Shown here: positions 1 to 45,961 of the stretch, one piece after another
How the letters are laid out: every line of letters starts with the position of its first letter
Numbering within the stretch: the stretch's first letter is position 1
Source: Candidatus Parachristensenella avicola
GTDB lineage: Bacteria > Bacillota > Clostridia > Christensenellales > UMGS416
DNA length: 64,000 nucleotides
NCBI GenBank assembly: GCA_904420205.1
Contig: CAJFUN010000039.1
Span: forward strand, 1 to 64,000
Direction: 5' to 3'
Position numbers and translations under genes: made by a program
The notes under the pieces: generated by a model
What the model saw: the letters and a program-made list of their open reading frames with translations, nothing else
The model's database searches: none
Told to the model about the DNA's origin: nothing

Positions 1-227
1 AGCCCCGTCAGCTCAGGCTCCCCCGCGCGCCCCGTCTGCCCCACGCAGATCTCCGCCGCGTCCTGGTTCCCGATCGTCCCCCGGCTCGCCGGGTGGATCG
101 TCAGGTTCGCTCCCGTCATCTCGTAGAGATAGCGGGATAGTTCCTCCGCCGCCCGCCAGGTGGCGGCGCTGGCCTCGTCGGCCACGATGATATGGGCGCG
201 GGTCGCGCCATGGTTGGCTAGTATCAT
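1..227 (-). CDS. DUF4838 paralogue, N-terminal part only (runs off window)
   Basis: The reading frame opens with ATG at 227 behind a good AAGGAGA site and stays open to the window edge, giving about 75 residues. The N-terminus (MILANHGATRAHIIV, then a Trp/Arg-Ala-Ala-Glu-Glu-Leu helix) matches the starts of the five complete DUF4838 proteins upstream, especially the one at 3812-5548. It is therefore the sixth and most distal visible member of the tandem array. In this family the N-terminal domain resembles the non-catalytic domain of GH67 alpha-glucuronidases and precedes a TIM-barrel domain. No signal peptide is visible. The 32 bases separating it from the previous gene suggest one transcript. 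Function is inferred from family resemblance only. Confidence 0.8.
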   Translation of the reverse strand, partial: MILANHGATRAHIIVADEASAATWRAAEELSRYLYEMTGANLTIHPASRGTIGNQDAAEICVGQTGRAGEPELTG

Positions 228-259
228 GGTTCTGTTCTCCTTCTTTATCTTCTGCCCGC

Positions 260-1990
260 TTAGTCCAGCTCCGGGTCGTGCTGCCGCACATTCAGCGTAC
301 CGTTGCGCATGCGGCGGATGCTCTGCTCCAGGCTCATGCCTTCGCGAATCTTTTCAATGCCATAACGGCGCACATCCGCCTCAAAGGCGTCGATCAGCGC
401 GTCGCGATCCGGGGCGTCCTTAGGCATGCGGTGCAGCTTCACATAACGCACCTGCAGCCGGGATTTACGCACCCGATCCAGTACCTCCGCGTCGTCGGCC
501 AAGGCTTCAGCTTCGTCAAAAAGCGCATCCATTTGCGGGATAAGTTCATCGGGAATATACTGATCCGGGTTATGGTAAATGCCCACATGCAGACCCCGTT
601 CCAGCATCGAATCCCGCAAAAGCCGGATATACCGGGCCAGCGGCGCAGCCGCCATGCCATAGTATCCGGTCATGAACTCCTCCATAGCCTGCTCTACATC
701 CAGATCCAGGTTCCACATGAGCTTTGAGATCACATAGGCCCTGAGCTCGCCGAACTCGCCGGAAGCCGTTTCCGCGTTGCCCTGCTCAAAGAGGCCCGTC
801 ACATGATGGTCGACAAAATAGCGGACGTTGTCCTTGAGCACATGGAAATTGGGGAAGGGGGCCAGATAATGTTTATAGTTGGTGGTGTAGTCCCACACGA
901 ACATGCGGGGGCTGATGGCCTTCCAGTTATCCATGTCGGCCTGGAAGGTTGCTCCCGCTACGGTGCGGTCCTTAAAGGAGGCCGTCTCATTGCATTCACC
1001 CAGGGGGTGGGTGAAGCAGCATTCAATGGAGCAGATGCGCACACACACATTGGGCAGGGGATGCGTCTTGGGCGCCTGGCGGGTGTACTGATAGGCAAAA
1101 GTATCAATAATCACGTCCGGAAATTCCTCGGCGATGGAAGCAGCGCAGGCGTTGATAAAGCGGATCAGCGTACCCGAATAGGCGCCCTCCTCGGCGTCCA
1201 CCCTGGCGCATTCCGGGCACTGGCAGGGGTTGTACCAGTCCATCTGGGCGATGGAGAAGATCTTCGCCTCAGGATGGTCGATAATGTTCTGCCTTAGCTT
1301 TTTCTTGGTGATCTCCAGCACATCGGGATTCGTCAGACAAAGCTGCGTCTGCTCCCGGATGCGCTTGCCATCGACCATGGAGAAGTACTCCGGATGCTCG
1401 TCAAAGTACTCTTCCGGGCTGACATACTCGAAAAAGGAATGGCCAAAATAATAATATTGAATACCGCCGCCCACTTTTTCCGGGTAATTGTTGAAGATGG
1501 ATCCGTTCAGGCCGCGCTTAACGGCAAAAAGCGGGTTCGTCTCCGGACCGTGCCAGAAAGTCTCTCGATATTCCAGCGGTGGGATCCGCATCACGTCCAG
1601 CTCCGGCAGGATCAGATCCGCCCGCCGGGGGATCTTTTCCACCTCGGGAGTTAGGAAGCGGCACCCCAGATAATCCTCCAGAAGGCCGTATACGCCATAC
1701 AGCGTGCCCCGGTCGTTTTCGCCTAGAATGAACAGCCGGTTCCCCTCCGCCTTTAAGATATACCCGTCATTTTTCAATCCATCGCCGCAGGGCGTGCCCG
1801 GCCGATTGGTGCGGCCGATCACAATTTCCTTTTCCTGTGCGTCCATGGCGTCGGATACCACGGGAAGTACGGCGCCGGTTATCCGGGCGGTATAGCCTGC
1901 CAGCTCCGTGGCCGCATAGCGCTGGGCCTCGGTGGCGCCCTCAGCGATGACGATTACATAGTCGGTTAGGCGGTTGTCTACAATGTGCAT
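260..1990 (-). CDS. DUF4838 family glycoside-hydrolase-like protein
   Basis: A 576-residue cytoplasmic protein without signal peptide. Residues 1-125 form a GH67N-like domain ending in the family signature GVYGLLEDYLGCRF (about 99-112). Then comes a barrel-like region with HPEYFSMVDGKR (199-210), a cysteine cluster NPCQCPECA (254-262), SIECCF (321-326), WDYTTNY (366-372) and LFEQGN (400-405). The tail from about 430 is helical. DUF4838 proteins are predicted glycosidases of carbohydrate-use loci, but their substrate is not established; the acidic residues in the last motifs are candidates for catalysis by inference. It is the fifth gene of a six-gene minus-strand array, 78 bases after the previous stop. 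Ribosome site AAGGAG lies about 11 bases before the ATG. Confidence 0.88.
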   Translation of the reverse strand: MHIVDNRLTDYVIVIAEGATEAQRYAATELAGYTARITGAVLPVVSDAMDAQEKEIVIGRTNRPGTPCGDGLKNDGYILKAEGNRLFILGENDRGTLYGVYGLLEDYLGCRFLTPEVEKIPRRADLILPELDVMRIPPLEYRETFWHGPETNPLFAVKRGLNGSIFNNYPEKVGGGIQYYYFGHSFFEYVSPEEYFDEHPEYFSMVDGKRIREQTQLCLTNPDVLEITKKKLRQNIIDHPEAKIFSIAQMDWYNPCQCPECARVDAEEGAYSGTLIRFINACAASIAEEFPDVIIDTFAYQYTRQAPKTHPLPNVCVRICSIECCFTHPLGECNETASFKDRTVAGATFQADMDNWKAISPRMFVWDYTTNYKHYLAPFPNFHVLKDNVRYFVDHHVTGLFEQGNAETASGEFGELRAYVISKLMWNLDLDVEQAMEEFMTGYYGMAAAPLARYIRLLRDSMLERGLHVGIYHNPDQYIPDELIPQMDALFDEAEALADDAEVLDRVRKSRLQVRYVKLHRMPKDAPDRDALIDAFEADVRRYGIEKIREGMSLEQSIRRMRNGTLNVRQHDPELD

Positions 1991-2068
1991 GTACGTTTTA
2001 TCTCCTTGTGCATAGGATATGCGCTTAAGCCGCAGCCAGCGGCAAAAGGTTCGTAATAGGGGACGTCC

Positions 2069-3799
2069 TTACCAGACGTCGTTGGTTTGCCCGGCGCGAA
2101 TCTGCTCAATGCTTTTCTCCAGGTCACGGGCTTCGCGGGTCCGGGTGAAACCAAAACGGTGCAGGTCTCGGATAAATCCTTCCACCACCTCCGCCCGCGC
2201 TGGATCGTCCTTGGCCATCCGGTTCAATCGGCAGTAACGTACCTGCATGCGGGAACACTGCACCCGGTAGAGCACGTCGTCATCGTCGGCCAGCGCTTCG
2301 GCTTCATCCCAGAGGCGATCGGCCTCATCCAGCATTTCATCGGTGATGTGCCCATGGGTGGGGTTATCAAAGATGCCCATATGGATATGGTTTTCTTCGA
2401 CATGGCGTGCAATCATATCAATATACTCGCGAATTGGCGCTCCGGCCTGACCATAGTAGCCTGAAAGGAATTCATTCATCGCCTGGCTCACGTTCATATC
2501 CGGCTCCCACATGAGCCGGCTGATGAGATAAGCCCTAAGCTCGCCGCACTCGCCGGAAACCGATTCGCGGTTCCCTTGCTCGAACAGGCCAGTAACCCCA
2601 TTGCGAATGAAGAACTGGATATTGGGCTGCAACACGTAAAAATTGGGCATGGGGTTGAGATAGTGCCGGAACTGGGTGGTGTAATCCCACACGTGGATAC
2701 GGTTACAGATCTTGGCCCAGTCGGCCATGTCCTTCTGCAGGCTGACGCCTTCCGGGGTATCCTTTTTGAAATATTCGGGCATTACATCGCATTCGGCCAA
2801 GGGATGCGTGAAGCAGCACTCAATGGAGCAGATGCGCACCGCAACATTGGGCTCGGGCTTGGTAATTTTCGGTGCCTGACGGGTATATTGATACGCCAGC
2901 GTATCGATAATCACATGGGGATAGTCCTCGGCAATATCCCGGGCCAGCGCGTTGACAAAGCGAATCAGCGTGCCGGCATGGCTGCCCTCCTCCTCGTCAA
3001 TCCGGGCGCATTCCGGGCACTGGCAGGGGTTATACCAGTCGTTCTGAGAGATGGAAAAGATGGTGGCCTCCGGATGCTCCTCAATATTCCTGCGCAGCTT
3101 ATCCCGAACGATGGCGAATACCTCCGGATTGGTCAGACACAGCTGGCTGCGGTCCCGAAGCCGCTTGCCGTCCACCATGGAGAAATACTCCGGATGCTCG
3201 TCAAAGTATTCCTCCGGGCTGATATAGTTACGGGCAAAGGTATGGACGAAGCCATAATAGCTGATGCAGCCGCCCCGTTTGGGATCGATCCCGTGGCGGT
3301 GCCCATTCAGGCCGCGTTTGTAGGCGATGTCCGGGTCAAAATAGCAGTTCCAGGAGGTTTCCCGGTACTCAAAGGGCGGAATGATTTCGCGATCCATGGC
3401 GGGCAGGTCAATCTCCCGCCGCGCGGGGATCTTTTCCACGCCCGGCGCGAAAAACCGGCAGCCCAGCACCCGTTCCAGCAGGCCATATACGCCGTATAAA
3501 ATGCCCCGGTCGTTTTCGCCCTGGATGAAGAAGCGGTTGCCCACCAGCGTCAACCGGTAGCCGTCGTTTTTCAGCCCGTCCGTGCCGGGGCGTCCTTCCC
3601 GGTCCACCGGACCTATGCAGATCTCAAAGCGCTCCTGCGCGCTCTCCAGCGGATAGCCGTCCTCATACAGCGTAAGCGCAACGCCGCTCATCTTTTTCAG
3701 GTATCGAATAAGCTCTTCAGCGGCAAAGCGGTTGGTCTGGCTGGCGCCGGCAGGGATCACGACAGGAGCCTGCGCGCGCCCATTGGCGATAATCAGCAT
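2069..3799 (-). CDS. DUF4838 family glycoside-hydrolase-like protein
   Basis: A 576-residue paralogue of its neighbours, clearly alignable end to end. It keeps the GH67N-like N-terminus (GVYGLLERVLGCRF), the HPEYFSMVDGKR segment, the NPCQCPECA cysteine cluster, SIECCF, WDYTTQF and LFEQGN. No signal peptide or membrane segment is seen, so it should act in the cytoplasm on imported material. The start is supported by AGGAGGGA just upstream, and only 12 bases separate it from the preceding gene, so co-transcription is likely. Substrate unknown. The barrel region is most like that of the 3812-5548 copy (shared IAYKRGLNGYRHG/HRHG stretch), suggesting a fairly recent duplication. Confidence 0.88.
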   Translation of the reverse strand: MLIIANGRAQAPVVIPAGASQTNRFAAEELIRYLKKMSGVALTLYEDGYPLESAQERFEICIGPVDREGRPGTDGLKNDGYRLTLVGNRFFIQGENDRGILYGVYGLLERVLGCRFFAPGVEKIPARREIDLPAMDREIIPPFEYRETSWNCYFDPDIAYKRGLNGHRHGIDPKRGGCISYYGFVHTFARNYISPEEYFDEHPEYFSMVDGKRLRDRSQLCLTNPEVFAIVRDKLRRNIEEHPEATIFSISQNDWYNPCQCPECARIDEEEGSHAGTLIRFVNALARDIAEDYPHVIIDTLAYQYTRQAPKITKPEPNVAVRICSIECCFTHPLAECDVMPEYFKKDTPEGVSLQKDMADWAKICNRIHVWDYTTQFRHYLNPMPNFYVLQPNIQFFIRNGVTGLFEQGNRESVSGECGELRAYLISRLMWEPDMNVSQAMNEFLSGYYGQAGAPIREYIDMIARHVEENHIHMGIFDNPTHGHITDEMLDEADRLWDEAEALADDDDVLYRVQCSRMQVRYCRLNRMAKDDPARAEVVEGFIRDLHRFGFTRTREARDLEKSIEQIRAGQTNDVW

Positions 3800-3811
3800 C
3801 GTCCGTCCCTC

Positions 3812-5548
3812 CTACTTCATCGGATTATCGTTCACCGTGTTGGCCCGCAGCTTCTCCACGGATTTTTCCATGGGCTCCCATTCCCGCACACGGGTAAGGC
3901 CAAAGCGCGCGAGATCCCGGATCAGGGCCTCGGCCATGGGGCCATAGGCGGGATCTTCCGCCGGGGTAATATTGAGCCGCACATAGCGGATCTGCAGCCG
4001 TGAGCGCTGCACCCGGGCCAGCACATCCTCGTCGTCAGCCAGGGCCTCCGCCCGGTCGAAGAGCTTCTCGGCCTTTTCCAGCAAGGGCTCGGGGATATGC
4101 CCCTGCTGGGGGCTGCAGTAGATACCCACGTGGATATTCTGCTTCACCACATGCTCGCGCAGCATATCGATGTATGCCCGGATCGGCGCGGCCGCCCGGC
4201 CGTAATATCCGGTTAAAAAGTCGTTCATCGCTTCGGATACGTCCAGATCGGGATTCCACATCAGCTTGGTGATTAGGTAAGCCCGAAGTTCACCGAATTC
4301 GCCGGAGGGCGATTCGCCGTTTCCCTGCTCAAAGAGGCCCGTCACGCCGTTCTCCAGGAAAAACTTGATATTGGGCTGGAGCACATGGAAATTGGGCATG
4401 GGGTTGAGATAATGCCGGTAATTGGTCGTGTAATCCCATACGTGCATCCGGCGGCATATTTTGGCCCAATCCCGCATGTCGTCCTGGAAGGTGGCGCCCT
4501 GCCGGGTACGGTCCTTGAAATGCGCCGTCTCATTGCATTCGGCCAAGGGATGGGAAAAGCAGCATTCGATCGAGCAGATGCGGATGCATACGTTGGGCGC
4601 GGGTTTGGTGATTTTGGGCGCCTGCCGGGTGTATTGATAGGCCAGCGTATCAATGATGGCGTGGGGATAATCCTCGGCAATGGCGTTGGCGCAGGCATTG
4701 ACAAAGCGCAGCAGCGTGCCGGCATGGCTCCCCTCTTCCTCATCCACCCGGGCGCATTCCGGGCACTGGCAGGGGTTATACCAGTCATTCTGGGAAATGG
4801 AAAAGATCGTAGCGTCCGGATTGGCTGCCAGCTTTTCCCGGAGCTTGCGGATTACGATCTCCAGCACCTCCGGATTGGTGAGGCACAGCTGCGCATGATC
4901 CCGGATGCGTTTGCCATCCACCATGGAGAAGTACTCGGGATGCTCGTCGAAATATTCCTCCGGGCTGATATAATCGCGGCTGAAGGTGTGCACAAAGCCG
5001 TCGTAACTGATACCGCCGCCCCGCTTTTTGCACAGGCCGTGCCGGTAGCCGTTCAGCCCCCGTTTATAAGCGATATCGGTAGGCAGCGTCGCATTCCAGG
5101 ACGTTTCCCGGTACTCAAAAGGCGAAACATGGGCCTCGTCCAGCTCGGGCACCTGAAGCAGGCTGCGCGTGGGAACTTTCTCCACACCCTGAGCGTAAAA
5201 CCGGCAGCCCAACACTTCTTCCAGAAAGCCATATACACCGTATAGGATGCCACGGTCATTCTCTCCCGCAATGAAAAGGCGGTTATGCTCCGTACGCAGG
5301 ATATAGCCGTCGTTCTTCAGCCCGCTTGTATCCGGCACGCCCTCCCGGTTCACCGGACCCACGCAGACCTCAAGGCGGTCGGCGCAGCTATAGAAGGGAT
5401 AATCGTCCTGGTGGATGGAAAATGCCGCGCCGCCGATGGCCTTTAGATACCGGGCCAACTCCTGAGCGGCGAAACGATTGGTCTCGCTGGCGGCGGCGGG
5501 AATAAGGATCTCCGTCTGGGCCAAGCCATGGTTTGCCAGTGTAATCAT
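3812..5548 (-). CDS. DUF4838 family glycoside-hydrolase-like protein
   Basis: A 578-residue member of the array. The ATG at 5548 is preferred over one 21 bases upstream because AAGGAGGAGC precedes it and because the N-terminus (MITLANHGLAQTEILIP) then aligns with the paralogues. It carries the GVYGFLEEVLGCRF signature, HPEYFSMVDGKR, NPCQCPECA, SIECCF, WDYTTNY and LFEQGN motifs. Cytoplasmic, no signal peptide. The N-terminal half of the barrel shares the run of residues around KRGLNGYRHG with the 2069-3799 protein. A role in cleaving an unidentified glycoside is a family-level inference; the cluster contains no recognisable transporter or regulator that would name the sugar. Confidence 0.88.
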   Translation of the reverse strand: MITLANHGLAQTEILIPAAASETNRFAAQELARYLKAIGGAAFSIHQDDYPFYSCADRLEVCVGPVNREGVPDTSGLKNDGYILRTEHNRLFIAGENDRGILYGVYGFLEEVLGCRFYAQGVEKVPTRSLLQVPELDEAHVSPFEYRETSWNATLPTDIAYKRGLNGYRHGLCKKRGGGISYDGFVHTFSRDYISPEEYFDEHPEYFSMVDGKRIRDHAQLCLTNPEVLEIVIRKLREKLAANPDATIFSISQNDWYNPCQCPECARVDEEEGSHAGTLLRFVNACANAIAEDYPHAIIDTLAYQYTRQAPKITKPAPNVCIRICSIECCFSHPLAECNETAHFKDRTRQGATFQDDMRDWAKICRRMHVWDYTTNYRHYLNPMPNFHVLQPNIKFFLENGVTGLFEQGNGESPSGEFGELRAYLITKLMWNPDLDVSEAMNDFLTGYYGRAAAPIRAYIDMLREHVVKQNIHVGIYCSPQQGHIPEPLLEKAEKLFDRAEALADDEDVLARVQRSRLQIRYVRLNITPAEDPAYGPMAEALIRDLARFGLTRVREWEPMEKSVEKLRANTVNDNPMK

Positions 5549-5594
5549 GCGCTCCTCCTTTTCAGCCACCCATTACGGCGGCCGGCCATCGGGG

Positions 5595-7313
5595 TTACCG
5601 ACCCCGCATGCTTCTTATGCTATCGTCCAGTGGGATCCATTCTTTAAGCCGGGTGATCTGATATTGGTCCAGGTCATCGGCAAAGGCATCTACCAGGCCG
5701 GCTTTTTCAGGGTCAGCCACCGACATGCGGTTTAGCTGCATATAGCGGATCTGCAGCTGGCTGCGCCGGATCCGGGCTTCCAGTTTCCGGTCGCCTTCAA
5801 CAAGCTCCAGCGCCCGATCAAAAAGCGCTTCCCCCTCCGCCAAAAGCTCCGGCGGAAAAAGCTTTACGCCCGGCGCATCATAGATCGACACGTGGATCCC
5901 CTCCTGCTCCACTCGTGTGCATACCTTGTCGATGTATTCGCCGATGGGGCCGGCCCCGTCGCCATAATATCCCTTGAGAAAATCGCGGATATAGGCCTTC
6001 ACATCGCCCTCAGGGTTCCACATCAGTTTGGAAAGCACATAAGCCCTCAGCTCGCCAAACTCGCCGGACACAGACTCCCCATTGCCCTGCTCAAAAAGCC
6101 CCGCTACCGAATTCTCCTGAAAAAACCGGATGTTTTCCCCTAAGACGTATAGGTTGGGGAACGTCATCAGGTAATGGGCAAAATCCGTAGTATAGTCCCA
6201 AATGTAGATGCGGTTGCAGATTTGGCTCCATCCCTTAAGATCCTGCTGCAGGGTCGCCTCCCCCACTCGGCCCTGAAAATCCTTGGAAACGGCGGTGCAC
6301 CGGCTCAGCGGATGGGAGAAGCAGGCTTCAATGGTGCAAAACCGCACGGCCACATTATCCCTCGGGCGCGTAAGCTTCGGCGGCGTGCGGGTATACTGAT
6401 AGGCCAACGTATCGATGATCACATCAGGATACTGTTTTTCCACCTCTTCGGCTACCGCATTGACAAAGCGGATCAATGTGCCGGCATGGCTGCCCTCTTC
6501 CGCGTCCACCCGGGCGCATTCCGGACAGGTGCAGGGATTGTAGCAGTCGTTCTGGGAGATAGAAAAAATCTTCCGGTTTGGGTTAGCCTTAATGTTATCC
6601 AATACGCTTTGGGTCACGATTTCGAGCACCTCTGGGTTGGTCAGGCACAGTTGGGTCTGCTCCCGCAGGCGAACGCCATTGACCATGGAAAAATACTCCG
6701 GGTGCGTTTCGTAATACCGCTCCACCGGCACGTAATCGTTGAAGGTATGGACAAAGTTGCCAAAGTAGGTAATCGCGCCGCCTTCCCGCTGAGTAAGATG
6801 GCTAAATTGGCCATTATAGCCTCTTTTGGCTGCAAAATCCGCCGTTTGCGCCGACAGCCAGTTGGTATCGCGGAATTCAAAGGCCGGATTACGCACCAGA
6901 TTCAGGCCGTCAGGCACGGTCAGCCGCGTGCGCTGCGGCACCTTCTCCACCAGGGCCGTATAGAACCGGCAGCCGAACACTTCTTCCAGCAGACCGTATA
7001 CGCCGTACAATACGCCTCTGTCGTTATCGCCGGCAATAAAAAGTTTATCATCCTGGTTCAGCAGCCAATAGCCGTCGTTATATAGCTCCGGCTCTTCGAC
7101 GCCCTCTGGCTCCCGGTTGGTATCCCCCAGGCAAATTTCCTTTTCCTGCTGAGGCGTCTCGTCGGTGCAGACGGTCAGCCGAACCCCGTTGATCTTAAAG
7201 ATATAATCGCTAAGCTCCTTCGCCGCATAGGTTTCCGTCTCACTGGCCTGCTGGGGAACGACGATGATGGTATCTCCGGTAACCTCCATAGCGATCTCTT
7301 GCGGCGCAATCAT
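5595..7313 (-). CDS. DUF4838 family glycoside-hydrolase-like protein
   Basis: A 572-residue paralogue. Its ATG (7313-7311) overlaps the stop codon of the upstream gene, and GGGAG sits about 9 bases before it, so the two are translationally coupled; an internal ATG at 7289 is an alternative start. It carries GVYGLLEEVFGCRF, HPEYFSMVNGVR, NPCTCPECA, TIEACF, WDYTTDF and LFEQGN. It differs more from the 2069/3812 pair than they do from each other, placing it between them and the more divergent first gene. No signal peptide. Predicted glycosidase-like, substrate unknown. Confidence 0.87.
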   Translation of the reverse strand: MIAPQEIAMEVTGDTIIVVPQQASETETYAAKELSDYIFKINGVRLTVCTDETPQQEKEICLGDTNREPEGVEEPELYNDGYWLLNQDDKLFIAGDNDRGVLYGVYGLLEEVFGCRFYTALVEKVPQRTRLTVPDGLNLVRNPAFEFRDTNWLSAQTADFAAKRGYNGQFSHLTQREGGAITYFGNFVHTFNDYVPVERYYETHPEYFSMVNGVRLREQTQLCLTNPEVLEIVTQSVLDNIKANPNRKIFSISQNDCYNPCTCPECARVDAEEGSHAGTLIRFVNAVAEEVEKQYPDVIIDTLAYQYTRTPPKLTRPRDNVAVRFCTIEACFSHPLSRCTAVSKDFQGRVGEATLQQDLKGWSQICNRIYIWDYTTDFAHYLMTFPNLYVLGENIRFFQENSVAGLFEQGNGESVSGEFGELRAYVLSKLMWNPEGDVKAYIRDFLKGYYGDGAGPIGEYIDKVCTRVEQEGIHVSIYDAPGVKLFPPELLAEGEALFDRALELVEGDRKLEARIRRSQLQIRYMQLNRMSVADPEKAGLVDAFADDLDQYQITRLKEWIPLDDSIRSMRGR

Positions 7314-9088
7314 TCTGCCGCGCTCCCGTAATAGCTGTTCAGGATGCTATGAAGGTTATCCTCCAGCACCGCATCCGGATCAGGATCGCCGCCCACCTCG
7401 CGCAAATAGCCGATTCCGAAAGTTTTGGCCTTCTCGATGAAGGCCGCCAGGGCAGCCCGTCCCTCAGCCCGCGGCATGGAAGCAAAGCCCCGGGTTATCT
7501 TCACATATTCCACCGATAAGGCCGCTTTCTCCACCCGCCATAACACCGTCTCATTGTCGGCCAGCATGCGGGCTTGGCGGAAATACTCCTCCGCCCTGGG
7601 CAGGAAATCCCCGGCTAGATATGGGGCGTTCCACGGCGCGTCATAGAGCCCGGCATGGACGTCAGGCGCGGCCGCCTCCCGATTCACCATGCGCAGATAG
7701 GCCAAGATAGGGCCTGCGGCCATCCCGTAATAACCGGCGCAGAACTCCAGCAGAATCTGGTCGGTACTCCGGCCGGGATTCCAGAGCAGCTTTGCGGATA
7801 AATAGGCCCGCAGGCTGCCCATTTCGCCGGAGCGGCTTTGCCTGTTGCCCTGAAGCCGCAGATCCGTTACGCCGTTTTCCTTTAGAAACGCCATATTGTC
7901 GGCCAGAACCCACAGGTTGGGCACCGGAGCCATATAGTGGGCGAAATTCGTCACATAGGTCCAGCAATTATAATGGGTGCATATTTTCCCCCAATCCGCC
8001 AGGTCTTTATTGAGCAAACCGAACCGACCATTTTTTCCATCCCGCGTTTGCGCATAATTGCCGTTTCGCTCCTGGCAAAGCCGCAGCGGATGGGACAGGC
8101 AGGATTCAATGGTACAAATGCGCACCACCACGTTATGTCGCGGCTGCGTTTGGGCCGGGGCCGTGCGGCTATATTCATACGCCAGCGTGTCGACGATAAC
8201 GTCGGGGAATTCCGCCTCAATGGCTTCGGCCACGGCGTTAACAAAGCGGATCAGCGTGCCCGCATGGCTCCCCTCTTGCGCATCTATTTGGGCGCAAGCG
8301 GGGCACTCGCAGTAACCATAGCAGTCGTTTTGCGCCACGGCGACGATCTTCTTCTCCGGATGGGCCCGGAGGTCCCGCCGGACGTTCTCCGTCACGATCG
8401 CCAGCACGTCGGGGTGGGTGAGGCACAGCTGTGCCGTAAAGGGGCCCGCTCTGCGCTCCCCATCCACCAGCGCGAAATATTCCGGGTGCTCGTGGAAATA
8501 TTCCGCCGCCGGACAAAGGGTGTCAAAAGTATGGCTGCCTGGATATTCCACATTGCCGCCATGGCGCTCGTCCAGCGCGCACATGCTCCCTAAATTGGCG
8601 GTTTTTACTGCAAAATCGGCATTTTGCTCATCCGTCCCCGACATACAAGCTTCATACCATTGATTCTCCCGGAAGGCGAAGGCCGGCTGTTCGCGGATAT
8701 CGATCTTCTCCGGCAGCGGTGCCGGTGCTTTATGCGGGATATATTCCGTATCGGGCGTAAGAAACCGAACGCCCATGAAGCGCTCGATAAAGGCGAAAAC
8801 GCCATACAGCACGCCCCTGGGCGATCCGCCCGCAATGACGACGCCCTGCTGGTCGCGGCGGATAACAAAGCCGTCGCCTTCGGGCGCATCCGCTAATTTT
8901 AAACGCTGCGCCGTACCCACCCGGATCCGAAGGCCGTCTTCCCCCTCCGCTACAATGCCGCCGCCCCACGCCTGCTTGGCATACCGAACCAGCTGCTGGG
9001 CCGCATATACCTCAGCCGCCGAACATGTTCCCTCCGTATCCACCAAAATGGGACGCGCCTGCTCCTTCCCCATGAGCCGATCTCCCAT
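7310..9088 (-). CDS. Divergent DUF4838 family protein, first gene of the array
   Basis: A 592-residue protein, the promoter-proximal member of the six-gene array. AAGGAGGGAG precedes the ATG; a second ATG 15 bases on is possible. It keeps the N-terminal signature (GVFAFIERFMGVRF), HPEYFALVDGE, the cysteine cluster as GYCECPACA, and TIESCL. However, the motif that is WDYTT in the other complete copies is WTYVT here, LFEQGN is LRLQGN, and the following NxES becomes NRQS. Three acidic positions conserved in the four other full copies are therefore lost. If those residues are catalytic, this copy is inactive or works by another mechanism, perhaps as a binding or partner subunit. That is inference from comparing the paralogues. 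Confidence 0.87.
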   Translation of the reverse strand: MGDRLMGKEQARPILVDTEGTCSAAEVYAAQQLVRYAKQAWGGGIVAEGEDGLRIRVGTAQRLKLADAPEGDGFVIRRDQQGVVIAGGSPRGVLYGVFAFIERFMGVRFLTPDTEYIPHKAPAPLPEKIDIREQPAFAFRENQWYEACMSGTDEQNADFAVKTANLGSMCALDERHGGNVEYPGSHTFDTLCPAAEYFHEHPEYFALVDGERRAGPFTAQLCLTHPDVLAIVTENVRRDLRAHPEKKIVAVAQNDCYGYCECPACAQIDAQEGSHAGTLIRFVNAVAEAIEAEFPDVIVDTLAYEYSRTAPAQTQPRHNVVVRICTIESCLSHPLRLCQERNGNYAQTRDGKNGRFGLLNKDLADWGKICTHYNCWTYVTNFAHYMAPVPNLWVLADNMAFLKENGVTDLRLQGNRQSRSGEMGSLRAYLSAKLLWNPGRSTDQILLEFCAGYYGMAAGPILAYLRMVNREAAAPDVHAGLYDAPWNAPYLAGDFLPRAEEYFRQARMLADNETVLWRVEKAALSVEYVKITRGFASMPRAEGRAALAAFIEKAKTFGIGYLREVGGDPDPDAVLEDNLHSILNSYYGSAAE

Positions 9089-9619
9089 GCTCTCCCTCCT
9101 TGGGCGGGACGGACGCCCCGCCGCTTTGGTTGCCCTCTTTTGATTCGCTCTTTTTTTGCATATCCCTGCCGGCCAGGGACAAATTATCCTATGCTCGATG
9201 GTATAGAAAATTTTTGGATTTGTCCATTGAAAAATGTGACCTACAATATGGAGGATGCGATACCCGCAGTTTGCTCAGATAGGATACCACGCTATCCCAC
9301 GCTGGCCTTTGCTCAACCGATATAGCCGGACGGTTGGACAACAAGAAAAGACGGTATGCGCCCCGTGGAAGGGCACCATATCGCCTTTTTTGTGGGAGCA
9401 AAGAGCGCAGCCGCTTCACTGGACACACGACTTTGCAAAGCAAAGTATCGCGCTATGCTTTGTCGGCATTGTCACGAAACGCCACTGCCGCCATGGAGCA
9501 AAGCCATTTCAAGTGGCAATGAAACAAGACTTGTGACTGCGTGGCGTGGAAGCGCAAATGCAAATCGGGTTTCATCAGAGACAGGGCATATTTGAGTGCC
9601 CCTTCCCTCGCCCTACGCT
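9089..9619. other. Intergenic: probable promoter of DUF4838 array plus unexplained sequence
   Basis: The part next to the array (about 9140-9260) is AT-rich and should hold its promoter, but no clear -35/-10 pair could be fixed. It holds a CCCTG/CAGGG hairpin (9164-9178) and two inverted GGACAAAT arms (9177-9184 and 9218-9225) that could bind a regulator. From about 9300 to 9620 every strand has short open frames without a recognisable protein, and no tRNA or riboswitch was identified. Confidence 0.4.
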
Positions 9620-10225
9620 TTAACCGGCGAAAAAACCATCCCAAATATGTAGCCGCACGCCCCAAAAGCAGCAGGACAGCGGGCGACCATTAAGACTAAA
9701 GTTTACGCCTACACCCGGCTCTGACCATTGCCCGCTGTCCCACTTAGTAGGTGAACAATACGGCCAATCGCTCAAGAGGCTCGGCTGCTTTTTTGTGATC
9801 CTAAGCAATTCACGCCTGTTATTCCCAATATCTGCTTGAACATTATCCCACCCAACGGAAACTTCGCTCATCGAAGCTTTTGCTCTCTCAGCAGCGCTAC
9901 AAATCTTTTGGCAAAGTTTATCATAATACGCTTTTTCAACATCAACATTCGCAGCCGCATGGGTATGCGAAAATGATAGCATGACCTTTTCTCTGGATGT
10001 GCCGATGGTTGCGCCGATCATATCCCGAAGCAAATTCGCTTCCTTTTTGTTAAAACCAATATTGTCGATCGCCACCAAACAACAGATCTCTTTATGCTCC
10101 CAAACGGAGACCTATGCCATCAAAGAATCCAATATGCCTCTAGAGGTGTTGTCCGTGCGATTAAATCCAATCAGCGTAACAGGTATTTTAGGCGTAATAT
10201 CCGCTTCCGCAAATCCCATCCTCAT
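9620..10225 (-). pseudogene. Truncated neutral/alkaline ceramidase-like gene with in-frame TAG
   Basis: ATG at 10225 follows an AGGGGGAAG ribosome site and reads MRMGFAEADITP, the typical opening of neutral/alkaline non-lysosomal ceramidase-like proteins. Codon 38 (10114-10112) is TAG. Reading continues in the same frame into VAIDNIGFNKKE, then SFSHTHAAANVD, which matches the family's conserved SATHTH-type metal-binding segment. After about 9810 the sequence no longer looks like the family, and it ends after about 200 codons where about 400 or more are usual. The gene is thus interrupted and 3'-truncated. A CAG-to-TAG change is the simplest origin of the stop. The family is known from lipid amidases and from uncharacterised homologues in glycan loci. 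Confidence 0.65.
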
Positions 10226-10284
10226 CTTTTCTTCCCCCTAAATAGCGAATTCATTATTTGCTCTTTGCAATACAAAAAACTTCA

Positions 10285-10779
10285 TCAATTCGTTTTCTTT
10301 CCCGCTTGTCCAACCATTTTCTTCCTTAAATTGGTTGGCGGTTTCCCCATCAAACGGTATGCGCTTTCCCATCGGATCAACTTGTCCGTTGTGCGAAATG
10401 CCTGTTTCTGTTCCGCCGGTATGTCCGGCATGGTTTGGAACATAGCAGCGATCACAACTTCGCCCGGCTGTTTCCCGTCATCAATATCTTTCTTCATATC
10501 CTTGGGAATAGCCAAAGGCGCACACCCTTGTTTTTTTATTCCCCCATCCTCTGCACGGTCAAAAAGCTGTAAATTATCATTTGCTTCTTCTCGATGTTCC
10601 GTATGTTCTCCTATCAGGTCGGACAGGGAAGCGGTTGCCCTCGCGATAAGCTGGTTCTGTGCCGTTATTCCCTTCGCCGTCGTGTCCCGAAAATAAATCC
10701 GTATGGAATTTATCTGTTTAGGAAGATTCCAGTGGTTCATCAAGCGATGGAGATCTTGCACATCGACAGCACAGAACAC
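10285..10779 (-). CDS. Hypothetical protein in decayed island
   Basis: An open frame of up to 164 codons, with no family I recognise. It is hydrophilic, rich in Gln, Lys and Asp, with no membrane segment. Base composition is more AT-rich than the flanking genes, in keeping with transferred DNA. Its 5' end overlaps, in another frame, the XRE-like fragment upstream, so the true start is uncertain and the frame may be the out-of-register remainder of a larger gene. The stretch from about residue 100 (DMKKDIDDGKQPGEVV) looks like genuine protein. Treat as a possible gene remnant. Confidence 0.35.
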   Translation of the reverse strand: MFCAVDVQDLHRLMNHWNLPKQINSIRIYFRDTTAKGITAQNQLIARATASLSDLIGEHTEHREEANDNLQLFDRAEDGGIKKQGCAPLAIPKDMKKDIDDGKQPGEVVIAAMFQTMPDIPAEQKQAFRTTDKLIRWESAYRLMGKPPTNLRKKMVGQAGKKTN

Positions 10780-10995
10780 CCTTCACTTCTCCCCGGTACA
10801 ATCCTAATTCAGAAATATCATAGCTTTTGCGAACGCCCACGGTGGACAAACCCAGTATGTCGTGCATTGATACTTTGAACGCTTCCGCCACATCCATACG
10901 CATATCGCTGCTGACTGTTCTCGTTTCCCGACCGGCAATGCAGCTCAGCTCGGCAATGGAATCGCCGAGCTTCTCCGCCAGTTTCTCTTATGGGA
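10718..10995 (-). pseudogene. Fragment resembling an XRE-type helix-turn-helix
   Basis: Read on the minus strand, about 30 codons (KLAEKLGDSIAELSCIAG, then SVSMHDILGL-like text) have the spacing of a Cro/CI-type DNA-binding domain: a first helix, an 'AELSCIAGRE' turn-like segment, and a C-terminal 'HDILGL'. The frame has a stop immediately upstream and no convincing start codon or ribosome site, and it ends after about 90 codons in a different frame from the following ORF. It is best seen as the remains of a small regulator. Confidence is low because the match rests on pattern alone. Confidence 0.3.
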
Positions 10996-11149
10996 GGTGG
11001 TCCTCATTTCATCGATCGGGAATCCGCTGTTCGGGCGCTTCGGGTAAAGCAATAGATACGCGCCGCCTCCGCATATTTTCATTATACAGAGCGATTGCAA
11101 AAACACAATTTTCAAAGTAGAAAATTCATTAAAATGCCATTCACTCAAA

Positions 11150-11673
11150 ATTCTGAGATTGCATTTTTCCGAGTAGGCTTAGGGCCGTTGATCAATGGGC
11201 ATCAGCTTGAAAATAGCATGATTATCCCCAAAAGATGCCTGGCTGGGGAAATACCGCGGGGAGCGGGCTTCGGGACACAATGTCGCGAAGTCGCGGGAGC
11301 GTGCCAACGCTGGAACACACTGCGGTTGTGGGGAACCCCGCAAAGCCGCGGGACTTTGTAGAGAGAGGGAGCAGCGGGATGAGTTTTGCCCCTTGCGACA
11401 ACGAGGCGGGCAATCTTTTCGGGAAGAACAATAAGGGAAAGCAAAGGCCGTGAATGCATCAGAGATTTCTTCTAATGAAAGCCTGCGTCAACCCAATGGA
11501 GCTAACCGCTGAACCTTTGAATCTGCTGATTAAAAAGAACCTTGCCCCTGGATCAGCCAAAGTTAGGGACGGAAGCCGGGTACAGGAAGCTAAAATCTTC
11601 TACCTCCTTATCGGCAAAATAGGCTGAATGACATCAATATCTTTAACGATGTGCATCCGGCACGCCATTGGCG
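11150..11673. other. Intergenic stretch, nothing recognised
   Basis: No protein family, RNA gene or repeat could be identified. Several short overlapping frames exist on both strands but none has a credible ribosome site together with a recognisable product. GC content varies within the stretch, consistent with decayed DNA. Confidence 0.4.
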
Positions 11674-11700
11674 CAAAAAAGAGCGGGGAGCCCGCTCTTT
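11674..11700 (-). terminator. Intrinsic terminator after the lamin-tail-domain gene
   Basis: An 8-bp perfect stem AGAGCGGG/CCCGCTCT (11680-11687 with 11691-11698) and a 3-base loop; reading on the minus strand it is followed by a run of six T. It lies just after the stop of the gene at 11717. Confidence 0.8.
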
Positions 11701-11716
11701 GCTTTTTATCTATGCG

Positions 11717-12301
11717 TTATCGCCGCTGCTCCACCAGTCCCATGGGCGCGGCCTGCCCGCTATACCCGTCAATTTGGTTACCGGCGCCCGGCGTAGGCTG
11801 CGCAGTCCTGACCATCGCGCCCTGCTCCGATATACCATAGCTTTCATCCTCGCCCATGGCCGGCATAAAAATCGCTTGCAAAATACGCCCGCTCGGGTCA
11901 GCCAGGCTTAGGAACTCGCCCTGGGCGGAAAGGCGAAAGGGCACGTGGTAATAGTGGCCGTCCCATCCCTCGCCTCCGGAAGCGCACAGCACCAAATACT
12001 CCCCTGGCTGCAACATATAATCAGGCAGCACGGCGAGATCCAGCTTCCGCTTGCTGTCCCCCAGGGTAAAACCCTTGAGGTTCACCGCCTCCTCGCCGGT
12101 GTTGGTCAGCTCAATCCAATCCGGGTGGGCGCCCTTGCCATCCGTTAGGCAACCGTGATTGGAGGCGCACAGCTCCCAAATGGTAATGCCCCCATCCGCG
12201 CCGGCCATGGAGCTTTGCCGTGAAAATATCAGCGCGAGGGTTATGCCCAAGAGCGCTGCCAGGGCCATCACTCGCGCCGGTTTTGCAGAAAAAATACCCA
12301 T
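11717..12301 (-). CDS. Exported lamin-tail-domain protein
   Basis: A 194-residue protein with a short basic N-terminus and a hydrophobic segment (about residues 9-26), acting as signal peptide or anchor. The body, about residues 38-150, reads as a lamin tail domain: ITIWELCASNHG, PDWIELTNTGEEAVNL, FTLGDSKRK and a late PGEYLVLCASG segment. These are the usual beta-strands of the LTD fold, which in bacteria occurs in secreted proteins, often next to nucleases or calcium-binding modules. Here it stands alone with a short C-terminal tail. It should be on the outer face of the membrane. A terminator follows. It sits in a decayed island but appears intact. Confidence 0.75.
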   Translation of the reverse strand: MGIFSAKPARVMALAALLGITLALIFSRQSSMAGADGGITIWELCASNHGCLTDGKGAHPDWIELTNTGEEAVNLKGFTLGDSKRKLDLAVLPDYMLQPGEYLVLCASGGEGWDGHYYHVPFRLSAQGEFLSLADPSGRILQAIFMPAMGEDESYGISEQGAMVRTAQPTPGAGNQIDGYSGQAAPMGLVEQRR

Positions 12302-12408
12302 GTCTTCGCCTCATTTCTTTTTCGCTAGTGTGCCCAAAGACATGGAATCCTATTGCATTTGTTTTTTTATCTGGCCGTCGGCGTGATGCGTTGCGAATCG
12401 TCCGGGGC

Positions 12409-13504
12409 TTTTCGGGGAGTGAATTATACTATCAAGAGCAAGGCTTTAGGGAAATAAAAAGAGGTTCATACAGAACCCTGGTAGAACGAAGTCACCACAC
12501 ACCAAACTATGGAAAGAGAATTATATGAACTACTATCATCTCACCATAGAAAAGCGCAGCTGTATACGGAAATATTATGTGGACGGATAGATTGAGTTAT
12601 CGAAAGATTGCCCGGCTGATCGGGAGGAATGTGCGTACGGTGTCGCGGGAGCTACGGCGGAACTGCACCCACATGTACGACATCCCGACCTACTACCCGC
12701 ACACAGCGCAGAAGAAGTATCTGCTGTGCCGTTCCTACTGCCACCGCGGGATGTTCCATTCACAGGAAGTGATCGACTACATAGAGAAATGGTTGCGGGC
12801 AGCCTGGTCATCGGAGCAGATTACCTGTACCCCTTGTAGGCTGAAGCTGCCAAGTTGGCGGACGATCTACCGGTGGATCTACGAGAAGTACCCGGTAAAC
12901 GGCAATCTGAAAGTGCTTCGCTGCAAGGGAAAGAGCCACGGAGTGAAAGAAACGCGAGGGAAAGTTGATCCGCAAGAGGGGCAAGCCGGTATACAGCCGC
13001 CAGAAGGTCGGGCATTGGGAAGCAGATACATTGGTGAGCGGCCAGGGCAAAAGCAAAGCCTGCTTTGCCACCTTGGTGGAACGCAAGACTCGGTTTTACA
13101 TTGCTGTGAAGATGCCGGACCGACGGGCGGAGACCATAGAAAACGCCATTGTCGCTGTATTGCCCGCTTTCCCTCCGCAGCTGGTCAAGACCATTACCTG
13201 CGACCGGGGCACGGCGTTTGCCAGCTGGCGCCAGATGGAAGAACGATTGCATTGCGAGGCCTATTTAGCCGACCCGTATTGTGCCTGGCAGAAAGGCACA
13301 AATGAGAATCTGAACGGCCTGCTCCGGGAGTTCTATCCCAAGGGAAGGAACCTTTCCCGCGTTGCTCCCGCCACATTAAAACGAAACCTAGCGTTGATCA
13401 ACGCCAAGCCTCGCAAAGTTTTGAACTTCCATTCTGCTCAGGAATTATGGGGCTTCGAGCTCAATTCCTGTTGCATTTAGTTTGACAATTCACTTTTCCG
13501 GAAA
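12409..13504 (+). mobile_element. IS30-type insertion sequence, decayed
   Basis: The element is bounded by imperfect inverted repeats: TTTTCGGGGAGTGAATT at 12409-12425, and the complement of 13487-13504, which reads TTTCCGGAAAAGTGAATT. Between them lies an IS30-family transposase reading frame in pieces. The length of about 1.1 kb fits IS30. Flanking target duplications were not evident by eye. No second copy occurs in the window. Confidence 0.75.
12525..13480 (+). pseudogene. IS30 family transposase, two frameshifts
   Basis: Translation starts at ATG 12525 (MNYYHLTIEKRSCIRKYYVDG), the usual N-terminus of IS30 transposases with a helix-turn-helix. A four-base insertion near 12585-12591 creates TAG (12588-12590) and shifts the frame; without it the sequence runs on as LSYRKIARLIGRN. 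A second shift near 12955 separates this from the catalytic part. The last frame, about 12965-13480, holds the three acidic residues of the DDE core: HWEADT, TCDRGTAF and NENLNGLLREFYP. The enzyme cannot be made in full from this copy without recoding at both sites. It would catalyse cut/copy transposition of the surrounding element. Confidence 0.85.
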
Positions 13505-20468: not shown

Positions 20469-21221
20469 TTATCCCTGTCCTCCCGCACATACCTCATGCG
20501 CTGTGTCCCGGATCAGCGCCAGCAGGCCCTCATCCGCCTCCGTCAATGGGGTAAAGGCCGTCTCCCGCACATCCCTTCCCGTTAAGCGTTCATACCACAC
20601 AGCCGCCAGGGCGTACCGCCCGTATAGCAGATCCATATGGAATCCGTCGCGGCACAGGCTGCGCCCGCCATGGGCATAATCAAAGGGCTGCAGGGCACGC
20701 AAGCGCTGAATAACGGATCCGCAGGGGATGATCGGCGCGCCGATGGCCGAAGCCGCCTGCTGGTATGCGCTCTCCAGCGCATGAAACATGGCGGATTGGT
20801 TGTGCCCATACCGCGCAAAGGCCGGATGGCTGCTGTCCAGCTCATAGGCCCAAGTTTGATGCACCCACAACTGTGCCTGCGGCGCACGGGCGCGCACTTC
20901 TCCGGCCAGTAGGCCAATATATGGGAAATAGCTTTCCGGCTGGCCGCTGTCATGGCTAGCCTGCTGCAACGTTATCGCATCCCAGCCTCCCTCGTCCAGC
21001 GCATGGGCAAGGGAGGTCATTCGCCCCTCGCTTATGCCGTTGCGTTCCCGCTCATAGGCCTCCGCACCGCTTTGCATATTCTCCCAGTGGGTTGCCAGCG
21101 AGCAACCGCCGATATACAGATTGACCGCTTCCATTTCGACACCCCCGCTTGCAGCCAGCTGCACCAGGTATGCCATCGCGTCCTGCGAAAAGCTGTTGCC
21201 GATTGCCAATACCCTGAACAT
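20469..21221 (-). CDS. DUF4886 (SGNH-hydrolase-like) protein
   Basis: A 250-residue protein. It opens VLAIGNSFSQDAM, where GNSFS is the block I motif of DUF4886, an SGNH/GDSL-like fold with Ser as likely nucleophile (about residue 9). Other family blocks are WDAITLQQASHDSG, a VHQTWAY segment, and a late DGFHMDLLYGRY containing the expected Asp/His pair (DGFHM). Such proteins are predicted carbohydrate esterases or related hydrolases in glycan-use loci. No signal peptide, so cytoplasmic. CAGGAGGG precedes the ATG. Confidence 0.85.
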   Translation of the reverse strand: MFRVLAIGNSFSQDAMAYLVQLAASGGVEMEAVNLYIGGCSLATHWENMQSGAEAYERERNGISEGRMTSLAHALDEGGWDAITLQQASHDSGQPESYFPYIGLLAGEVRARAPQAQLWVHQTWAYELDSSHPAFARYGHNQSAMFHALESAYQQAASAIGAPIIPCGSVIQRLRALQPFDYAHGGRSLCRDGFHMDLLYGRYALAAVWYERLTGRDVRETAFTPLTEADEGLLALIRDTAHEVCAGGQG

Positions 21222-43862: not shown

Positions 43863-45026
43863 TTACTCGTATAGCAGATAGGGTTTTACCGCTTTCCTGT
43901 AGGCTTCCAAGCCCGCCTTATTCGCTTCCAGCACACCCTGGCAGGAGAGCGCGCCGGTGCGGAATTGGTCGGTCCCCATCAGGCTGTCCAGGAAATACCG
44001 CCGCCCATCCTGAGGCCGGTCGACAAAGCGGTACTCAAAGCGATCCGGATGCAGGTCACGGATCACCTCCAGCAGATACAGCCCCGTTTCAAAAGAACGG
44101 AACGCGCGGCGGTCGGTCACATGGGGCTGCACCGCATAGCACAGCTCTCCCTGGTACTTGCTGAAGGTCGGCGTAAAGCATCCGGCGCGGAATTTGACGC
44201 CGGGCAGGTTCTTAGCCTGCATGGCTTCCACCACCTCGTAGCTTTTCAGCCACGGCGCGCCGATAATCTCAAAGGGAATCGTGGTGCCGCGGCCCTCGGA
44301 AACGTTGGTGCCTTCAAAAACGCAGGTGCCGATATAGAGTTCCGCCCCGTCGATGGTGGGCAAATTCGGCGAGGGAATCACCCAGCTCAGGTCGGTCTCG
44401 TCGGCGTACAGGTCGCGGCTCCATCCTTTGCAGGGAACAACGGTGAGCTCGCAGGCGAACTCCTCCGGCCGAGTGCCGGCCAGATACCGGGCCAGCTCGC
44501 CGATGGTAATGCCGGTGCGGGTGGGGAGCCCGTAATCGCCTACAAAGGAGCGGAAACGCTCGTCCAGGATGGTCCCTTCCACTTTCACGCCGCCAATGGG
44601 ATTGATGCGGTCAAAAATCACCATGGGCAGCCCCAGCTTCTTGCAGCAGGCCATGGAATAGCTCATGGTATAAAGGTATGTATAAAACCGCGCGCCCACG
44701 TCTTGGATGTCCACCACAATCATATCGACATCCTTGGTGTTTTCCTCGGTGAGCTGGTCGCCCTCGCCATAGAGCGAATAGGCCATCACCCCGGTTAAAG
44801 GATCGATCCGGTCGGCGATCTTTACCCCGGCCTGGGCGTCGCCCCGGACGCCATGCTCCGGAGAATACAGGGCGGCCAGCTGATAGCGCTCATTCAATAA
44901 ATCGATGGTGGCCGTCAGATCCTTGCGCGTACCCGTCGGGTTGGTAATCAGGCCCAGGCGCTTGCCCTTGAGCAGCGCGTCCACCGATTCAATCTGGTCA
45001 ATCCCGTTGAATACCGTAGCCTTCAT
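43863..45026 (-). CDS. namZ: DUF1343 / NamZ-type exo-beta-N-acetylmuramidase
   Basis: 387 residues, cytoplasmic (no signal peptide). Family hallmarks are LGLITNPTGTRKD, LYSPEHGVRGDAQAG (the Glu-His lies in the proposed active site of GH171), DVDMIVVDIQDVGARFYTYL, IFDRINPIGG, and FEGTNVSEGRGTT. NamZ enzymes release N-acetylmuramic acid from the non-reducing end of peptidoglycan fragments. The operon partners murQ and a MurNAc/GlcNAc kinase fit this role closely. The lack of a signal peptide suggests that it acts on imported disaccharides or short fragments. Third gene of the operon, 37 bases after the kinase. Confidence 0.9.
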   Translation of the reverse strand: MKATVFNGIDQIESVDALLKGKRLGLITNPTGTRKDLTATIDLLNERYQLAALYSPEHGVRGDAQAGVKIADRIDPLTGVMAYSLYGEGDQLTEENTKDVDMIVVDIQDVGARFYTYLYTMSYSMACCKKLGLPMVIFDRINPIGGVKVEGTILDERFRSFVGDYGLPTRTGITIGELARYLAGTRPEEFACELTVVPCKGWSRDLYADETDLSWVIPSPNLPTIDGAELYIGTCVFEGTNVSEGRGTTIPFEIIGAPWLKSYEVVEAMQAKNLPGVKFRAGCFTPTFSKYQGELCYAVQPHVTDRRAFRSFETGLYLLEVIRDLHPDRFEYRFVDRPQDGRRYFLDSLMGTDQFRTGALSCQGVLEANKAGLEAYRKAVKPYLLYE

Positions 45027-45062
45027 TATCGTTGTCCTCCTCTTATCTCAGCCGTCCCCGGC

Positions 45063-45959
45063 TTAATCCTCCATCATCCGGGCGTAATACCAGGCACCCC
45101 GGGTGAGCTCCTCGTCCATCGGAGCCAGCTTGCAGCTAACGCCTGCCTCCTCCACGGCTTTAAGCATCCGCTCCCGCACCTGGGGCACCTTGCGCAGGAT
45201 AGATCCCTGCAGCGCCAAGGTGAAGCCGGGCTCCAGCTTCATCCTGCGGGCCAGGCACACCACAAGCTTAGCCAGCTCCTCACCGGCTTTCGTCAAGATC
45301 GCCCGTGCATCCGGATCCCCCTCGGCGGCGCAGCGCACGACCGCCGGCGCGGCGGCCGCAATGTCCGCCTTCACGTGGCTGTGGATATATTTAATAACTT
45401 CCCTGGCGTCCGCCGCGCCAAAGAACTCGCGCACCGCCCGGCATACGGGTTTCTCCGGCCAGCCGTAGTCGCAGTCGCGAATCATCTGGCGAATGGTCTG
45501 CGCAACCAGATCATAGCCGCTGCCCTCATCGCCTACCAGGTAGCCCCAGCCGCCCACCGTGAGCAATTCGCCGCCCTTTCGTCCCTGGGCGATGGAACCG
45601 GTGCCGGAGATCACGAGGATTCCGTCGCCGCCTTTAAGCGCGCCTTCCAGCGCCAGCCGCGCATCGGTATCCACCGTCACCGGGCACCCAAAGCGTTGGG
45701 AAAGCGCTGCGATCACCTGTTGGTTAAGGCCGCCGGTAATGGCTCCGGCCGCGCCCACAAAAATCAACCGGCACGTTCCCTCCAGTCCCTCGGTTGCCTG
45801 GGCTACCGCCTCCTTCAGGTGCTCCACCGCTTCCTCGAAATGCATTACCACGTTGCCAAAGCCGCTGCGGCCCCTTCCCAAAGTCCGGCCGGAATCATAT
45901 TCATAGGCTGCTGCGGTGGTCGTGGTTCCCCCCGCGTCTACGCCTACCACATACTGCAT
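45063..45959 (-). CDS. BadF/BadG-type N-acetylmuramic acid/N-acetylglucosamine kinase
   Basis: 298 residues of the acetate/sugar-kinase-HSP70 fold. Phosphate loops VGVDAGGTTTTAAAY and ILVISGTGSIAQGRK, adenosine region GDEGSGYDLVAQTIR. It resembles GlcNAc kinases and the clostridial MurK that phosphorylates MurNAc and GlcNAc. In this operon it would make MurNAc-6-phosphate for MurQ from the sugar freed by the NamZ-type enzyme, replacing a phosphotransferase import step. It ends two bases before the ATG region of nothing else and starts 2 bases after murQ, so translation is coupled. Confidence 0.88.
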   Translation of the reverse strand: MQYVVGVDAGGTTTTAAAYEYDSGRTLGRGRSGFGNVVMHFEEAVEHLKEAVAQATEGLEGTCRLIFVGAAGAITGGLNQQVIAALSQRFGCPVTVDTDARLALEGALKGGDGILVISGTGSIAQGRKGGELLTVGGWGYLVGDEGSGYDLVAQTIRQMIRDCDYGWPEKPVCRAVREFFGAADAREVIKYIHSHVKADIAAAAPAVVRCAAEGDPDARAILTKAGEELAKLVVCLARRMKLEPGFTLALQGSILRKVPQVRERMLKAVEEAGVSCKLAPMDEELTRGAWYYARMMED

Positions 45960-45961
45960 CT

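Follow-up and report, generated by a model that had tools for sequence, protein, structure and literature searches.

Why does one bacterial genome carry a long, closely packed series of genes for a single family of putative glycoside hydrolases, how far does that series extend, and what might its products do? These questions arise at one edge of the stretch of DNA analyzed here (the window, 64,000 nucleotides), which represents positions 1–64000 of contig C39 in a genome of 2.96 Mb (51 contigs, ~91% complete). On the minus strand of window positions 1–9088 there are five complete DUF4838 open reading frames (ORFs) and a sixth that is cut at the contig end (Table 1). All five complete copies matched the DUF4838 profile (PF16126) over nearly its full length with scores of 311–361 bits (cut-off 26.6), and they also matched the Glyco_hydro_67N profile (PF03648) at the N terminus, marginally so in gene 1. 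The six tandem paralogues on one strand that were described in the initial annotation are thus borne out by the ORFs and the profile matches, and the array is in fact longer. The intergenic gaps in this half of the array measure -4, 25, 12, 78 and 32 bp (the negative value being the overlap of genes 1 and 2), which is nearly exactly the 0–78 bases first reported, and the copies differ as clearly in sequence as had been claimed, those of the window being 38–67% identical at the amino acid level. Given this divergence, and a longest exact stretch of only 47 nt common to array copies, duplicates created by assembly or by a recent event were excluded as the source of the repeated ORFs.

Table 1. 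Features of the array and its leader in the window.
Feature	Position	Strand	Description
Array gene 1	7310..9088	-	592 aa, DUF4838/GH163-like; divergent member, 34–44% identity to other copies
Array gene 2	5595..7313	-	572 aa, DUF4838; 4-bp overlap with gene 1
Array gene 3	3812..5569	-	585 aa, DUF4838; structure modelled, pLDDT 95.3
Array gene 4	2069..3799	-	576 aa, DUF4838; sister is gene 3, 67% identity
Array gene 5	260..1990	-	576 aa, DUF4838; sister is gene 11 on contig C5
Array gene 6	1..227	-	N-terminal 76 residues, with 75 whole codons (3–227); remainder at G000:C5:1–1416, 471 codons
Leader 5' of gene 1	9089..9188	-	GC-rich hairpin 9103–9122 and ribosome-binding site

Window position 1 is the end of contig C39 itself, and the further copies that had been proposed as something to look for beyond it were found on another contig, C5. 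This contig opens within a DUF4838 gene (471 codons, the remainder of copy six) and continues with six more complete DUF4838 genes on the same strand, separated by gaps of 9–68 bp. When the whole genome was searched with PF16126, every array gene scored at least 312 bits, above the curated cut-off, which places all of them in DUF4838. The part of gene 6 on C39 matches the N terminus of L021, a gene of another Clostridia MAG, at 76% identity, and its second-best match is a paralogue at 39%; for the part on C5 the best match, at 68% identity, is the remainder of L021, ahead of one at 60%. A comparison of the L021 N terminus with the whole genome returned exactly one fragment for residues 1–75 (C39:3–227) and one fragment from residue 112 (C5:4–84, residues 112–138, 85% identical). 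Because the two halves have their best match in a single external gene, they were assigned to a single gene and the array to a total of 12. The compared ends of C39 and C5 showed no sequence overlap, and from the sequence matches we strongly infer that they belong to one split gene from which ~35 codons are absent. Most likely, then, the array consists of 12 genes (11 complete and one split by the contig gap) that span ~21 kb on one strand and are spaced at -4 to 78 bp. The lack of overlap would also suit two contigs that are not adjacent and carry separate arrays of about six genes each. We consider this extremely improbable, because apart from this pair the genome has no DUF4838 N-terminal fragment and no DUF4838 gene whose N terminus is missing at a contig end, and because both cover the one L021 gene, at 76% and 85% identity.

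The PF16126 search gave 22 matches in the genome, two of them both weak and partial, on contig C11, and the total is ~21 DUF4838 genes. Across the order, DUF4838 was detected in 40 of 297 genomes and was absent from 257, with one to three copies in most carriers and a top scored count of at least 7, these copy counts, like those of a phylum sample in which 9 of 398 genomes were positive, being lower bounds from the best 5–7 candidates scored per genome. The remaining seven genomes of the family had 0 or 1 match. The expectation of one or a few such genes in most genomes accordingly holds for the order, but it fails for the Lentisphaerota and Armatimonadota, which have 20–34 copies per genome, mostly dispersed. 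A run of this kind was not found to be common in related genomes, as would have undermined the initial annotation, but runs of two or three do occur: three genes are adjacent in one rumen Lentisphaeria (G706:C72), relatives of the L021 genome have short runs of 2–3, and among the 80 best related loci directly adjacent copies were present in only two (L025 and L092). Tandem growth recurs in the DUF4838 family, and twelve is the longest run among the genomes examined, although contig breaks may conceal longer ones. DUF4838 is a known enzyme family, and what is new is the unusually long, old tandem array. The genome also has a second tandem DUF4838 pair (L010 8178–11766, at C39:90–94 kb), which is younger (71% identical) and is flanked by an esterase-like gene on one side and the gene of a BadF-type kinase on the other.

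The age of the array is apparent from the divergence of its members, which share 34–67% amino acid identity in pairwise comparisons, with dS of ~1.1–2.1 and dN/dS of ~0.15–0.29 (approximate values, dS being near saturation). In a careful tree, 11 of the 12 array genes fell into one clade (bootstrap 99, SH-aLRT 97) that also takes in one paralogue dispersed to contig C45 and, from other Clostridia, three genes that each neighbour a particular array gene (support 100/99, 100/100 and 97/88). A fourth external gene was placed inside the array clade in a wider quick tree, and a clade made up of array genes only was rejected by the AU test. Since 11 of the 12 genes form one clade in which genes of other Clostridia are nested, we conclude that they are old local tandem duplicates that have been retained under purifying selection, not recent ones and not an assembly of unrelated genes. 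The recent amplification that had been offered as one explanation of the run is contradicted by this nesting, by the AU test and by the identity and dS values, and the tree proposed at the same time supports local duplication for eleven genes but not for gene 1, which lies outside the main array clade and whose long branch makes its exact position uncertain.

Horizontal transfer that put the array together from unrelated DUF4838 genes would be compatible with the nested external genes, with the placement of gene 1 and with the location of the L021 gene directly downstream of a recombinase-like ORF (an ORF read by eye). It is nevertheless highly unlikely in view of the single clade of eleven, which contains only three external genes (plus one in the wider tree) and one dispersed paralogue, the close kinship in the tree of the array neighbours 3/4 and 7/8/9, and the G+C content of the array (0.58 versus 0.59 in the rest of the window), which indicates that its composition is native and uniform. 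A phage origin was rejected, a PHROGs search with three array proteins having given no match. Another possibility is dosage, in which equivalent copies were amplified to provide more of one enzyme, and the tight tandem arrangement, common strand, equal length and identical core residues are what it would predict. Copies in dosage arrays usually stay near-identical, however, and we regard this explanation as unlikely given the divergence of the copies, their near-saturated dS, the lack of any sign of homogenisation and the fact that single orthologues of individual array members are kept in other species.

The leader ahead of gene 1 is the presumed start of an operon, and in it an SD-like AAGGAGGGAGAGC precedes the ATG. 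Promoter-like matches in this leader were at chance level, and internal promoters or terminators in the array were dismissed as candidates, promoter-like matches there being likewise no more frequent than by chance. On the 5' side of the array, at 9.1–13.5 kb, are decayed ORFs and an IS30-like fragment, followed by rsmG-mnmG-mnmE. Window positions 9089–13500 are lower in GC and include a ceramidase-like fragment (9620–10078, recognized by eye and having no Pfam match) and an IS30-like HTH ORF (12577–13305). On the 3' side, on C5, a gene for an iron-type alcohol dehydrogenase follows after 42 bp and then one for an alpha/beta hydrolase; beyond these, in the opposite orientation, are an AraC gene (~4.4 kb from the array) and a gene for a GHL6-type hydrolase. 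Neither in the window nor on C5 does a transporter, sugar kinase or dedicated regulator lie immediately next to the array, so the locus does not have the content of a PUL or glycan operon; the earlier observation that there is no adjacent transporter therefore holds on both sides. The C5 half (L009) contains strong GC-rich hairpins at 1417–1484 (between genes 6 and 7), 3270–3317 (genes 7 and 8) and 10380–10431 (genes 11 and 12), such structures being weak or absent in most other gaps. These three hairpins may tune expression, break the transcript or belong to a small repeat family.

With respect to function, DUF4838 proteins carry the annotation GH163 in the literature (PMC9870897), and the GH163 enzyme of B. 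thetaiotaomicron is a cell-surface enzyme that hydrolyses GlcNAc-beta-1,2-Man in complex N-glycans (PMC10154615; cited also in PMC11288935). The link of the array proteins to GH163 is this literature annotation of DUF4838 rather than an alignment with a characterised GH163 enzyme, and no NCBIfam model matched them. An AlphaFold2 model of gene 3 (pLDDT as in Table 1, pTM 0.94) had structural matches to GH115 (Z 18.7 over 486 residues), GH84 (Z ~16) and GH67 (~14.5), GH20 being also among its Foldseek matches, and the fold as modelled is a GH67/GH115/GH84-like barrel. Sequence matches to GH67 and GH115 were confined to the N-terminal domain (GH67N, residues ~15–115), the remainder matching PF16126 only, and the similarity to GH84 and GH20 is one of fold alone, with sequence matches in the N-terminal accessory domain; a catalytic domain of these four families was not recognised from sequence. 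A sequence search of solved structures gave no match in the DUF4838 catalytic domain, the matches being mainly to the N-terminal domain.

All 12 array genes retain Q260, D262, C267, C269, C272, Y311, C332, E335 and W378, of which D262 follows strand 4 and E335 follows strand 6. In gene 1, the nearly invariant D379 and E414 are replaced by T and L, respectively, a pattern of substitution that may reflect altered chemistry or a pseudoenzyme. Among genes 2–12, average identity is 67–90% in the barrel strands and the motifs beside them, whereas mean pairwise identity falls to 0.38 in the loop at 157–190 and to 0.23 in that at 346–360, versus 0.53 overall. The putative catalytic residues and the loop positions were assigned by means of conservation and secondary structure rather than a structure with bound ligand. 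As had been reported for the first six genes, there is no signal peptide: no hydrophobic N-terminal leader was found in any DUF4838 copy of the genome, in contrast to the secreted copies of other genomes, which have one.

Additional indications of the substrate come from the dispersed copies, which in this genome and in other Clostridia adjoin BadF-type sugar kinases, SIS proteins and sugar ABC transporters. A copy on contig C22 (L015 8623–13800) is located with a BadF-type kinase and an SIS protein, and the nearby sulfatase with an SGSH-type C-terminal domain is a hint of sulfated amino-sugar glycans. The pair at C39:90–93 kb adjoins another BadF kinase, and a copy on contig C30 adjoins two ABC permeases (of an LplB/YtcP-type transporter), with GH127 nearby. 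There are six BadF matches in the genome, two of them within ~1 kb of a DUF4838 gene, and the association of the two families recurs at five other Clostridial loci. The BadF and SIS neighbours suggest that the dispersed copies act in amino-sugar release in the cytosol. Elsewhere in the window, genes for NamZ (an exo-beta-N-acetylmuramidase), a BadF-type kinase and a GKRP/MurQ-like SIS protein are adjacent at 43863–46864 and probably form an operon for peptidoglycan amino-sugar recycling, and a DUF4886 protein (PF16227, 220.7 bits) is encoded at 20469–21221. That the array acts on a sugar other than N-acetylhexosamine, such as a uronic acid or a plant side chain, is a serious though somewhat unlikely alternative. 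The fold is as near to the GH115/GH67 alpha-glucuronidases as to the GH84/GH20 hexosaminidases, GH115 gives the top structural matches, the N-terminal domain is GH67N, and the C30 copy has its GH127 and LplB/YtcP-type neighbours; against this, the GH84 score is nearly as high, and both the GH163 kinship and the BadF, SIS and SGSH-type sulfatase neighbours point to amino sugars.

Taken together, we infer that the array is best read as an enzyme set for related glycans, close to the first of the two explanations in the initial annotation (enzymes for one complex glycan). The best explanation overall, to which we would give about an even chance, is that co-transcribed cytosolic enzymes of GH163 type act on imported oligosaccharides by means of diversified substrate loops. 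Under this proposal, the array genes would be transcribed together and their products would be cytosolic glycoside hydrolases; a transporter encoded elsewhere would import oligosaccharides, candidates being fragments of host N-glycans or mucin, and the enzymes would free beta-linked N-acetylhexosamine from them or cut at a bond beside it. After duplication the catalytic core would have been fixed and the two loops on the presumed substrate face of the barrel (one following strand 1, the other strand 6) would have diverged, such that each copy might recognize its own branch, aglycone or decoration within a single heterogeneous glycan. Counting against this explanation are that the reference GH163 activity is that of a surface enzyme of Bacteroidota and that the array is without a kinase, transporter or regulator of its own, and the hairpins described above could break a single transcript. 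More tentatively, and with somewhat less than even confidence, we speculate that all twelve genes are one operon that encodes a combinatorial intracellular toolkit, in which one scaffold provides about twelve specificities through the two variable barrel loops. If true, such a toolkit would let a 3-Mb bacterium use a single fold to deal with most forms of a heterogeneous host glycan.

Few members of GH163 have been characterised, and twelve natural variants in one cell, with a fixed core and two variable loops, represent a panel for specificity determinants. The array is also a long-maintained bacterial tandem duplication, single orthologues of which are kept in other species. By literature annotation it has its domain family (DUF4838, PF16126) in common with the GH163 endo-beta-N-acetylglucosaminidase of B. 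thetaiotaomicron (PMC9870897; PMC10154615), but the B. thetaiotaomicron protein is located at the cell surface (PMC10154615), whereas the array comprises twelve tandem copies, none of which has a signal peptide. The GH115/GH67 alpha-glucuronidases and GH84/GH20 hexosaminidases share an N-terminal domain and the barrel fold with the array proteins, at 10–16% identity over the structural alignments listed and with no sequence similarity in the catalytic domain. The sets in Lentisphaerota and Armatimonadota are comparable or higher in total copy number (20–34 per genome), but they consist of longer proteins that are mostly scattered, with a longest adjacent run of 3, and that are secreted where checked (Lentisphaeria). 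A parallel in arrangement is in G720, a relative of the L021 genome, in which DUF4838 underwent an independent local tandem amplification that is likewise broken at contig ends; its runs (L100–L103), with 2–3 genes per contig, are probably another array broken by assembly, and they differ from the array described here in forming a separate clade and in encoding exported lipoproteins.
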